Assembly (NCBI GenBank): GCA_018262835.1
Contig: JADFDP010000015.1
Location: 1 to 40,641 of the forward strand
DNA from: Candidatus Aminicenantota bacterium
GTDB lineage: Bacteria > Acidobacteriota > Aminicenantia > UBA2199
Direction: 5' to 3'
Length of the DNA: 40,641 bases
A model generated the notes under the pieces. It ran no database searches and was not told the origin of the DNA. It saw only the letters and a program-made list of their open reading frames with translations. The translations under genes were made by a program, and so were the position numbers. Of the stretch, positions 24,158-37,376 are shown one piece after another; positions within the stretch are counted from its first letter, which is position 1; every line of letters begins with the position of its first letter.

Positions 24158-24345
24158 GGGGACGGTGCTTGGTTTTTTGTATCAATCATATTTTTTTGAC
24201 TTTTTCATAGCGAACCAACGCACCCAGAGCATTCATTTTTACACCTGAAAACTCAGGCAGCCTGGCAATCTCACGGCAGGTAAGGCCGCCGTAGTCCTTT
24301 AGAAGCGCCACAGCTGCCGACGCACCTTTTGCAGGGATTGTCCCC
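24158..24345 (-). mobile_element. Remnant of a REP-associated (IS200-like) transposase unit
   Basis: GGGGACGGTGCTT at 24158-24170 is a family-A end. From about 24330 down to a stop at 24186, the minus strand encodes LKDYGGLTCREIARLPEFSG followed by VKMNALGALVRYEKVKKI. This matches the C-terminal helix-turn-helix of the remnants at 35425 and 36957. No catalytic Y1 (HUH) part is left. The other edge (ATTGTCCCC near 24338) is a poor inverted match, so this is an eroded copy. Confidence 0.6.
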
Positions 24346-33102: not shown

Positions 33103-33147
33103 AATCATCAGCGAGCATTTTGTTCATGTTGAAAAGGCGAGTTGAAG

Positions 33148-34557
33148 ATGAAAAAAAAACCATTGCTTCCCATCATTGGGATTGCCCTGGCCGCGCTGCT
33201 CCTGGCCTGTTGCCGTGTTCCACCGCCAACGCCTGCAAGCCAGGAAAACGTGTACTACGTTGCAGCCAATGGCAGTGATTCCAACCCCGGAACGGAGGCC
33301 CAACCCTGGCTGACGATCCGGAAGGCTGCCTATACCCTGGTCGCAGGGGATACGCTGTACATCCGGGCGGGTGACTACCCCGAACGCGTTGTCCCGCAAA
33401 ATTCGGGAAGTGAGGGGAATCCCATCACCTACGCGGCCTACCCCGGTGAGGTGGTCACCATTGAGGGGACGGGGGTGGATGTACCGGAATATAGCGGGTT
33501 GTTCGACCTGACGGGGCGGGATTACCTCCGCATTTCGGGTTTGCGGGTGATCCACTCGAAGTATTATGGCATCGTGGCTGAAAATTCCAGCCACATCGTC
33601 ATCGAACGCAACACCACCTATGACACGTATTCATCCGGCATCTCTTCGTGGAACAGCCATGACATCATCGTGGATGGCAACGAAGTGGTTGGGGCGTGCA
33701 CCGGCATTTGGCAGGAGCACATCTCGATCAGCAACACCGGCTCTTTCGAGGTGCGCTACAACCACATCCACCATGTCATGCCTGGCACGGAGGGCAAGGA
33801 GGGGATGAGCATCAAGGACGCTTCAGCCCACGGGAAAGTGTACGGCAACCACGTGCACCACCTGAATCATGTGGGCATCTACGTGGACGCCGAGGCCGAG
33901 CATTTGCTCGACATTGAAGTTTATCAGAACCTTGTCCACGACATCCATGGCATGGGTTTCTCTCTGGCTTCCGAAGCGGGCGGACTGTTGGAAAATGTCC
34001 GCCTGTACAACAACATTGCCTATAACAACCAGGTTGGCATATGGCTGTCGACCTGCTGCATGGCCTCGCACCCCTTCAAAGACATTAGCATCATCAACAA
34101 CACCTTTGCCCATAACGGGCTGGGTAGCTGGGGCGGCGGCATCGGAATCGAAAACACGCAGATGGAGAATCTGGTCATCCGCAACAACATTTGCAGCCAG
34201 AATACCTATTCGCAGATGGCCGCCCCGGCCAGCGTTCTGTCGGAGGTCAGCGCGGATCACAACCTGGCCGACGGGGATCATGACCCCGAGTACGAGTTCC
34301 ATGGCCAGGGTGATCTCGTCGATGTGTCCGCCTTGTTCGTAAACCCGCTGACGGGTGATTATCGCCTGCAAGCCGCCTCGCCGGCGATTGACGCCGGGGC
34401 CGCGCTCGCTGCCCCCGCCATCGATTTCGACGGGGAATCCCGCCCCCAGGATGGCAACGGGGACGGCCGTGCGCTCTACGACATCGGGGCGTACGAATTC
34501 GTCGTCCCGGTCGTTTCAGCGTCCGCCTATCTGCCGCCGGATGTAAAAAATCGTTAG
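33148..34557 (+). CDS. Beta-helix lipoprotein with choice-of-anchor-Q-type C-terminus
   Basis: 469 aa. The start is ATG 33148; a TTG two codons upstream is possible. The signal ends IALAALLLACC, a clear lipobox. The N-terminal VYYVAANGSDSNPGTEAQPW-LTIRKAA is the DUF1565-type opening of surface parallel beta-helix proteins. PbH1 coils follow (HIVIERNTTYDTYSSGISSW, IIVDGNEVVGACTGIWQEH, VRLYNNIAYNNQVGIWLS, NNTFAHNG, RNNICSQN). The end SPAIDAGAALAAPAIDFDGE with DIGAYEF is the 'choice-of-anchor Q' motif. The likely role is a polysaccharide-binding or lyase-like surface protein; no catalytic residues can be assigned. The last 47 bases of the gene are duplicated at 37270. Confidence 0.8.
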   Translation: MKKKPLLPIIGIALAALLLACCRVPPPTPASQENVYYVAANGSDSNPGTEAQPWLTIRKAAYTLVAGDTLYIRAGDYPERVVPQNSGSEGNPITYAAYPGEVVTIEGTGVDVPEYSGLFDLTGRDYLRISGLRVIHSKYYGIVAENSSHIVIERNTTYDTYSSGISSWNSHDIIVDGNEVVGACTGIWQEHISISNTGSFEVRYNHIHHVMPGTEGKEGMSIKDASAHGKVYGNHVHHLNHVGIYVDAEAEHLLDIEVYQNLVHDIHGMGFSLASEAGGLLENVRLYNNIAYNNQVGIWLSTCCMASHPFKDISIINNTFAHNGLGSWGGGIGIENTQMENLVIRNNICSQNTYSQMAAPASVLSEVSADHNLADGDHDPEYEFHGQGDLVDVSALFVNPLTGDYRLQAASPAIDAGAALAAPAIDFDGESRPQDGNGDGRALYDIGAYEFVVPVVSASAYLPPDVKNR

Positions 34558-34617
34558 CTGCAGTAAGGGAAAAAGGATTCAGGGCAAAAGTAATAATGAA
34601 AGACCTGACCCCAATGC
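34511..34617 (+). repeat. 107-bp direct repeat, copy 1 (gene 3' end plus downstream)
   Basis: This block matches 37270-37376 at 103 of 107 positions by eye. It covers the last 15 codons and stop of the beta-helix lipoprotein gene plus 60 bases downstream, ending in GACCTGACCCCAATGC. Confidence 0.85.
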
Positions 34618-35392: not shown

Positions 35393-35718
35393 GGGGACGG
35401 TGCTTTACTTTATTACTTTAGCCGTCATTTTGCCCCAAGCCGTTCCCTGGAATCCATATACAGTTTCCCCAGCGAATTTTGCTTGATGCCGGAGAATTCG
35501 GGCAATTGCGCGATCTCCCTATAGGTGAGCCCAGACAACTCCCTCAGTCGAACCAACAGTTCCCCCGTAAATGCTTGCCGGTCATCGTTCCAAAGTCGAG
35601 TTGTTAGCGAAGTCACAAATTCAAGCACCCTGTCCAGAGGTTCCTCGAATGTTTAAAATCGCGACCCGGCCCCAGGGTTTCAGAGCTCCCCAAAGTAACA
35701 AAGTCAAGCATCGTCCCC
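35393..35718 (-). mobile_element. 326-bp transposase remnant unit with inverted ends (copy B)
   Basis: The left end GGGGACGGTGCTTTACTTTA... (35393-35419) and right end (35692-35718) match as inverted repeats at 24 of 27 positions. From about 35650 down to a stop at 35425 the minus strand encodes a RAYT-like C-terminus: EEPLDRVLEFVTSL, TGELLVRLRELSGLTYREIA and QLPEFSGIKQNSLGKLYMDS. The catalytic Y1 region is missing. The C-terminal helix-turn-helix is shared with the units at 24.2 and 37.0 kb. Total length equals that of the 36932-37257 unit although different parts of the transposase are kept. Confidence 0.7.
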
Positions 35719-35862: not shown

Positions 35863-36900
35863 ATGAAAAGGAAATCTTTTTTGTTTGTTTTTTGGGTTTT
35901 TATTTTATTGCTTCCATTGACTTTAGTTTTCCCACAAACCGTAATCAAGCAAAAGAAAACGACATTCTCAATCCTAAAGGTGACCGTGCCCGATCTGATC
36001 GGAAAGACGTTCGCTCAGGCAAAAGAAATTCTTGAGAATAAAAAGCTGGGGTGTGTCAGAGAAATCATTCTGACCGAAAAGGCCGAATTCCAGGGGAAGG
36101 AGGGTACTATCGTTCGACAGGACCCACAGCCGGGAAGCGAAACCGCTTCGGGAACAAAAGTTCGTTTAGTTGAATACAACCCGCCAAAAAATGTTCGGCT
36201 TGCTGTCAGAAAAGTGGACCTTTTAATTGACAACGTCTACTGGACGAAACATCCGACCCGAAACACGGACAGGCTGATTGTCTTAATAATGGGGAAAGAA
36301 TCCGGCAAACCGGTAAAAGACCTTAATCAACTGGATATCAAGGTGGTACTCCGAGATAAAAACCAAACAGAAATTTACTACAGCCTGGCAACGTTTTCAA
36401 CTTCCTTCAGTTCAGACGGTATTGCTTCGGTAATTTTTGACGCCATTCCATATGGAAAAATGAACGACACATACTATATACGACTGACCATAGATCCGCT
36501 GAATAAAATCATCGACACCAATATGGCCAACAATGAGTTTGAAACAAAATCACTTGCTGATTTTGCGGTAAAAAGTATGTGGATCGAAGATGCTGGCAGC
36601 TATTACAAAATCAAAGCGACAATCAAAAATATGGGAACGGTAAAGCAAACCAAAGTCTTTTCTTATACCTGGTACGTTGAAGGCAAAGCGGATTCATTGA
36701 AGCTCGATGTCTATCTTGGGCCAAATCAGGAATATACCATCAATACTACTGCCCGAAAGGAATCAATTCCTGCTGACAAAAATTCCCTGCAAGTGAAGCT
36801 CCATTTAAATGACGGACTGGTTTCCTGGAGAAATAAAGTGATCGCCGAGATAGATTACGCAAACAACATTCTTGAACAAGACCTAAGTATTCCCAACTAG
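35863..36900 (+). CDS. Exported PASTA plus CARDB-like domain protein
   Basis: 345 aa. The start at 35863 follows GGAGGGGGAA. A signal peptide (MKRKSFLFVFWVFILLLPLT) leads into one PASTA domain (residues about 38-107: VTVPDLIGKTFAQAKEILEN, GTIVRQDPQPGSETASGTKV). Then come two CARDB-like Ig modules (VRLAVRKVDLLIDNVYWTKH and DFAVKSMWIEDAGSYYKIKA), each ending in the N-N-x-x-E pattern (DTNMANNEFE, DYANNILEQD). PASTA domains bind muropeptides and CARDB domains act as surface adhesion modules, so a cell-wall or surface role is likely. The base composition is clearly AT-richer than most neighbours, suggesting recent acquisition. It shares its promoter type with the genes at 33148 and 37465. Confidence 0.75.
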   Translation: MKRKSFLFVFWVFILLLPLTLVFPQTVIKQKKTTFSILKVTVPDLIGKTFAQAKEILENKKLGCVREIILTEKAEFQGKEGTIVRQDPQPGSETASGTKVRLVEYNPPKNVRLAVRKVDLLIDNVYWTKHPTRNTDRLIVLIMGKESGKPVKDLNQLDIKVVLRDKNQTEIYYSLATFSTSFSSDGIASVIFDAIPYGKMNDTYYIRLTIDPLNKIIDTNMANNEFETKSLADFAVKSMWIEDAGSYYKIKATIKNMGTVKQTKVFSYTWYVEGKADSLKLDVYLGPNQEYTINTTARKESIPADKNSLQVKLHLNDGLVSWRNKVIAEIDYANNILEQDLSIPN

Positions 36901-36931
36901 AAAGCAAGGGAGAGCAAGGGGGGAAAGCAAG

Positions 36932-37257
36932 GGGGACGGTTCTTGTATTCTTGACATTACTCCCCCCACAAAGGAAACTTCGAGCGCGCCAGGCGGTATA
37001 GACATCCCATGCTATTCAGCTCCAGACCTGCAAAAAGATCCAGCTTCGCAATTTTCCGGTAGGTCATTCCCGCGCGCAGCAGACCAGAACGCAGATCTTG
37101 GCAAAAGCCTGAATCCTTCCCAGCAAAACTAGAAAGAACTCTTTATCCACTGCGGTCCTGAAAAGCGGGCTCCCTTCTTGTTCGCGGTTCATCGCGTCAG
37201 GGAAATCTCTTAAGAATATTTTTGCTGATCAAATACAAGAATACAAGAACCGTCCCC
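36932..37257 (-). mobile_element. 326-bp miniature REP-transposase element with both transposase ends (copy C)
   Basis: The ends are perfect 22-bp inverted repeats starting GGGGACGGTTCTTG (36932-36953 and 37236-37257). Inside, minus strand, 37192-37064 encodes MNREQEGSPLFRTAVDKEFF then LVLLGRIQAFAKICVLVCCA, which matches the N-terminal part of Y1 REP-associated transposases just before their HUH motif. It stops at TGA. Overlapping that stop, 37067-36957 encodes MTYRKIAKLDLFAGLELNSM then GCLYRLARSKFPLWGE, the C-terminal helix-turn-helix. The catalytic centre between them has been deleted, as in miniature elements that need a transposase in trans. Family assignment is from motif reading only. 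Confidence 0.7.
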
Positions 37258-37269
37258 TTTGGCTTCCGA

Positions 37270-37376
37270 TCGTTTCGGCGCCCGCCTATCTGCCGCCGGA
37301 TGTAAAAAATCGTTAGCTGCGGTAAGGGAAAAAGGATTCAGGGCAAATGTAATAATGAAAGACCTGACCCCAATGC
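37270..37376 (+). repeat. 107-bp direct repeat, copy 2
   Basis: This is a second copy of 34511-34617 with four mismatches by eye. It carries a headless last 15 codons of the beta-helix lipoprotein gene, its stop and downstream sequence. It begins 12 bases after the right end of the miniature element at 37257. Confidence 0.85.

Follow-up and report, generated by a model that had tools for sequence, protein, structure and literature searches.

An internally deleted Y1 transposon with terminal inverted repeats in a Candidatus Aminicenantes genome, and its shortened relatives

Y1 transposons and the short repeats related to them

TIR-associated tyrosine transposases (TIRYT/TIRtrons) were named in 2013 by Di Nocera et al., and the available text of that paper gives GGGGWSAS as the consensus of the TIRtron outer motif (PMC3733652). 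According to the available parts of Quentin et al. 2018 (PMC6006769), TIRYTs fall mostly in subclass 2.1 and carry C-terminal HTH domains, and it is to this subclass that the clade of the element described here probably belongs. The element lies in the window, that is, the whole stretch of 40,641 nucleotides that was analysed. With the TIRtrons it shares a RAYT-type Y1/HUH enzyme whose C-terminal extension may be HTH-like, flanking inverted repeats whose outer motif is of the GGGG(A/T)(C/G) type, and the presence of such ends in genomes singly or in pairs. It differs from them in that the window copy has no enzyme core and in that its ends read GGGGACGG rather than GGGGWSAS: GGGGAC agrees with GGGGWS, whereas the final GG is not an exact fit to AS.

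In the REPIN/RAYT system (Bertels and Rainey 2011, PMC3116915), a short inverted pair is proposed to stem from the two ends of an IS200-like element and to be mobilised in trans by the transposase of that element. The short inverted pair and the proposed trans mobilisation by a Y1 transposase recur in our element. However, REPINs consist of GTAG-type REP hairpins without gene pieces, as generally understood and as described in PMC3116915, whereas the window element keeps transposase remnants. Moreover, each REP folds into a hairpin of its own, whereas the stem of the window element forms between its two ends. In the available portions of PMC3116915 and PMC3733652, an origin of REPINs and similar tiny repeats from Y1 transposons is already proposed, and forms that retain gene pieces between their ends are not described.

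IS200/IS605 elements have the same catalytic fold and motifs, but they carry subterminal hairpins and no terminal inverted repeats, whereas long inverted ends are the rule in the window's clade. An IS200/IS605 identity was rejected for the element because of the long inverted ends found in it and in its relatives, and a classical IS200 parent was rejected because the clade genes have terminal inverted repeats, matching the TIR-associated tyrosine transposases. Bacterial MITEs usually go back to DDE elements, which cut double strands. Our element resembles them in being short and non-autonomous, with matched inverted ends and its coding core gone, but its parent used a single-strand Y1 enzyme and not a DDE enzyme.

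The deleted element and the gene from which it derives

The full element is a TIR-flanked, internally deleted Y1 transposon of 346 bp on the minus strand. Its parts, together with two neighbouring features, are as follows.

36922..37267, minus strand: whole element, delimited by its inverted arms and by alignment of its DNA to the intact gene of a relative (G006:C210) and the adjoining 3' end
37236..37267, minus strand: 5' terminal inverted repeat, of which the inner 22 bp (37236-37257) are identical to the opposite end
36922..36953, plus strand: 3' terminal inverted repeat, inner 22 bp at 36932-36953
37064-37192, minus strand: ORF1, 42 aa
36957-37067, minus strand: ORF2, 36 aa
37068..37209, minus strand: N-terminal transposase remnant, holding most of ORF1; 75% DNA identity to G006:C210:19-160, protein match to residues 8-52
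36926..37077, minus strand: C-terminal remnant (HTH-like region, stop codon and 3' end), holding ORF2; 88% DNA identity to G006:C210:779-930, protein match to residues 259-298
37068..37077, minus strand: deletion junction GCGCGCGGGA, a collapsed 10-bp near-repeat GCGTGC(T/G)GGA, located by alignment with the intact gene; 628 bp lost
36900..36936, plus strand: three tandem outer-end copies (GAAAGCAAGGG-like), direct repeats with comparable arrays beside intact relatives
35393..35718, minus strand: second miniature, of another subfamily, with TIRs GGGGACGGTGCTTTACTTTATTACTTT and GGGGACGATGCTTGACTTTGTTACTTT and a C-terminal remnant only (ORF 35425-35628)

A preliminary description of this DNA had reported perfect 22-bp inverted ends and two frames of 42 and 36 codons that overlap by the four bases ATGA, all of which we confirmed in the sequence. 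The 22-bp ends, GGGGACGGTTCTTGTATTCTTG, occur at 36932-36953 (plus strand) and 37236-37257 (minus strand) with 0 mismatches, and around this perfect inner part the inverted ends reach 32 nt, with 29/32 positions matching (91% complementarity). Homology to another site in the window, in the form of a 111-bp direct repeat, restarts at 37266, beside the element, and since this repeat copy starts at the element's outer edge, it supports the placement of that edge on the 5' side. In a single-stranded DNA fold of the element, its two ends pair along one long stem, which is kept in the centroid structure, and the fold of the whole element beats 98 of 100 shuffles (z = -2.7). The ends contain no GTAG, and neither of them folds into a separate hairpin. 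On these grounds, and with 28 matches of the core motif in the window's genome against 2 for a reversed control, identity with a REPIN was rejected. Strict inverted ends had been called odd for a relative of IS200/IS605. They are not, because 45 of the 47 assessable intact clade genes sit between inverted ends that are better than those of all 20 shuffles, mostly beginning (G)GGGACGG; the association of such ends with tyrosine transposases has moreover been known since 2013, according to the available text of PMC3733652.

Two further regularities were seen at the ends. Inside the clade TIRs, two tandem 8-bp repeats follow GGGGACGG, as at 37236-37260 in the window, where the 5' end reads TTCTTGTA TTCTTGTA. 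On the inner side of GGGGACGG, the best direct repeat had a spacing of 8 in 31 of 37 end sequences, and the mean best 8-mer match in the ends was 6.2 versus 4.3 in shuffles. These repeats could be paired binding sites, and the regular layout of GGGGACGG plus two 8-bp tandem repeats presents a concrete target for binding tests. Outside the ends, tandem arrays, whose unit combines a portion of the 3' end with 8-16 bp of flank, follow the 3' end in 5 of the 32 intact elements tested, as well as in the window (36900-36936). These arrays are often successively truncated (for example L074 at 900-1000, and the 3' flanks of L112, L121 and L172). A general rule that the flanks outside the ends mirror each other in inverted orientation was rejected, as it is true in the window and a few relatives but not in general.

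When 100 relatives were searched with the 22-mer, allowing at most 1 mismatch, it proved to be rare, occurring in 7 of them, all in the window's genus. A Y1_Tnp search and a search with the C-terminal piece converged on one contig of the same genus (G006:C210), where a 298-residue open frame contains the HUH motif as DNHYHL and the catalytic tyrosine in YVLGNP and is followed by the window's 3' end; ATGTCAAGAATACAAGAACCGTCCC of the window 3' TIR is identical in the two. Both window pieces align with this frame, order and strand being kept, and the frame continues into the same TIR. The preliminary description had read the two frames as N- and C-terminal pieces of one transposase with its catalytic middle deleted, a reading to be abandoned if no intact transposase aligned with both or if they matched unrelated families; the G006 gene aligns with both and carries the HUH motif. 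It had also looked to a full-length relative with the same ends and an intact HUH motif. The G006 relative has the intact frame, the motif and the same 3' end, while its 5' end lies beyond the contig start, paired ends being seen only in other subfamilies.

Neither Pfam nor NCBIfam gave a match for the 42-residue or the 36-residue piece alone, and the assignment of both to a transposase rests on their alignment with full-length relatives. The parent gene itself scores 30.5 bits with Pfam Y1_Tnp (cut-off 23), and NCBIfam REP_Tyr_transpos matches it with an E of 3e-14 at 53 of 80 bits, which is below the curated cut-off. H55, H57 and Y114 are invariant among 15 aligned intact proteins of the same taxonomic family. 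A sequence profile gave no match against solved structures, but fold comparison did: the top match of the clade's structure model (pLDDT 88) was 4er8, a RAYT-REP hairpin complex, followed by IS608 and ISDra2. The C-terminal domain of the model is helical (residues 222-290), with one relative giving a weak match to HTH_23 that falls short of the cut-off (E 0.04). Close matches among named genomes come mainly from Candidatus Aminicenantes, WOR-3 and Stahlbacteria. Judged by its sequence, the putative parent matches a TIRtron, with a Y1 (HUH) transposase gene between GGGGACGG-type terminal inverted repeats.

The missing 628 bp comprise the HUH motif and the catalytic tyrosine and lie exactly between two 10-bp near-repeats, at bases 151-160 (GCGTGCTGGA) and 779-788 (GCGTGCGGGA) of the G006 gene, of which the window holds one merged copy. 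Because the lost segment is flanked by these copies, we infer a deletion at short homology, which may have occurred by replication slippage or another event of this kind; the chance of an identical run of at least 6 bases at random breakpoints is ~0.002 (about 0.2%). Since 628 is not a multiple of 3, the two pieces lie in different frames. The ATGA bases are also found in frame within the intact G006 gene, as the natural ATG-ACC (Met-Thr) codon pair of its C-terminal part, and since the frame-shifting deletion exposed these codons, the overlap is a by-product of that deletion. Translational coupling was ruled out on the same evidence, and the meeting point to which attention had been drawn has no meaning of its own. 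The ATG of ORF1 corresponds to a methionine codon within the original gene, ~11 upstream residues having been lost or decayed, and the N-terminal piece is both frame-broken and diverged.

The surroundings contain further material of this type. The 111-bp direct repeat (34507-34617 and 37266-37376, 95.5%) comprises the tail of a 474-aa frame (33133-34557) and the end of another TIR family (GGGGTCAGGTCTTTCATTATT); its second copy begins at the outer edge of the mini-element and stops close to that of the other TIR, a layout that would suit the copying of a segment together with an end. The second miniature is 1.2 kb away from the first element, and a third C-terminal transposase remnant (24158-24311) has one clear and one decayed TIR. 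With up to 2 mismatches, the TIR core GGGGACGGTNCTTG has ten matches in the window versus 1.6 expected, and the region is rich in TIR debris.

Deletion derivatives in related genomes

The window's junction recurs in a second species (G015:C1:7179-7395) within unrelated flanks. The two copies may go back either to one shared deletion or to two deletions at the same repeat, as the site patterns allow both. A derivative with another junction is present at G011:C33:110070, and at G009:C15:16457-16695 and in G006:C284 only N-terminal remains adjoin the 3' end. A family-wide profile search of 34 genomes of the Ca. Aminicenantes family returned many short clade pieces that are N-terminal only or C-terminal only. 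Middle-only clade fragments were almost absent; the middle-only pieces that did appear lay at contig edges or belonged to other Y1 families. Of the 45 fragments tested, 11 carry their own significant inverted ends, which vary from case to case, and ~8 further fragments have GGGACGG-like motifs at both ends. The derivatives with paired ends are ~160-350 bp long.

One of these derivatives, the 180-bp type, consists of an end, a short linker, a C-terminal remnant and the other end, and can be aligned from end to end among five copies in G010 and one copy each in G007 and G006, which are other species. Because these copies have the same internal joint but different flanks, the type has spread after its deletion, so that some deletion derivatives in the family do spread. 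Several copies of one deletion at different places, as expected of a MITE, are thus found for this sister type; for the window's own deletion there is one same-junction copy, that in G015. A still shorter form occurs in the window's own genome (G000:C87:9787), where the same 22-mer faces a decayed partner in a bare end pair of ~52 bp.

Elsewhere, a miniature was observed in two copies (L271 and L275, at about 26400 and 4840 of G015:C1) that are 92% identical over 233 bp, and the two ends of this miniature resemble different TIR subfamilies with only the GGGACGG core in common. TIRs and remnants are also clustered in hot spots, namely G010:C268, G015:C1 at 4.5-9.6 kb and G002:C8 at 1.7-8.8 kb.

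The element after its deletion

Very probably, the window element is a deletion derivative of a TIRtron and could behave like a MITE that is mobilised in trans. In the single-stranded state its two ends would pair into a stem of 22-32 bp, and a Y1 enzyme (TIRYT) made elsewhere could act on this stem and so move the derivative in trans. In sister genomes, related derivatives have multiplied after deletions of their own. The window copy probably has not multiplied recently and is now decaying. It is the single copy in its genome, which is 81% complete, and a contig end truncates the one clade transposase that was found in it. The preliminary description had regarded the element as an intermediate on the way to a short non-autonomous element; the relatives support such a route for derivatives of this kind, but the window copy stands alone in its genome. 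It had further proposed a search for empty sites in related genomes. None was found in the genus through either neighbouring gene, as the left-hand one has no counterpart in the other genomes of the genus and the right-hand one is preceded elsewhere by different sequence; the genes flanking the element are nowhere adjacent in the other genomes of the genus.

It is also possible, with a likelihood that we place slightly short of even, that the element is a dead, decaying copy of a transposase gene which lost an internal segment at random and never moved after it had been shortened, its matched ends being mere leftovers. The deletion history is the same in this explanation as in the one we prefer, and the two differ only on mobility after the deletion. 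A dead copy would fit with the element's being single in its genome, with the broken frame and 75% identity of the N-terminal piece, and with the 34 of 45 other fragments that are without significant paired ends. It fits poorly with the inner 22 bp of both ends, still identical despite the decay of the interior, with the same junction in an unrelated place of another species, and with the multiplication of the sister miniatures.

One could also imagine that selection maintains the C-terminal piece because it encodes a small DNA-binding protein, a regulator or competitor of the transposase, since C-terminal remnants recur across the family and the differences by codon position over all pairs of 180-bp-type pieces and relatives (139:122:269) show some third-position excess. 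Yet this excess can stem from the coding past of separate parents, and several C-terminal remnant copies contain in-frame stops. Between the C-terminal pieces of the window and of G015, the differences by codon position are 8, 9 and 4, without third-position excess, with 1 synonymous versus 14 non-synonymous codon changes. We consider selection for such a protein very improbable, and because the differences between the window and G015 are spread evenly across codon positions, the leftover coding pieces are most likely unused as proteins. The notion that the two peptides come from unrelated genes and lie by chance between two repeat copies, to which the silence of Pfam and NCBIfam on either piece alone might lend colour, is refuted by the alignment of both, in order and strand, with one 298-aa frame running into the same TIR.

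The element of the window, a deletion derivative in our preferred reading, is of a kind already known, and it is a good example of TIRtrons turning into miniature elements. One may go further and propose, tentatively and with the balance leaning somewhat against it, that TIR-type Y1 transposons of Ca. Aminicenantes repeatedly collapse by short-homology deletion to derivatives of 160-350 bp that keep the gene ends, and that some of these spread as single-strand-mobilised MITE families and shrink to bare end-pairs. According to this proposal, the route from a transposase gene to a REPIN-like repeat would be visible, with all of its stages coexisting in one group. Because the full gene, the deletion forms with gene pieces and the bare 52-bp end pair occur in related genomes, this route lends itself to comparative and laboratory tests. 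Recurrent collapsed copies, which sometimes spread, would in this way bear on the birth of tiny parasitic repeats.
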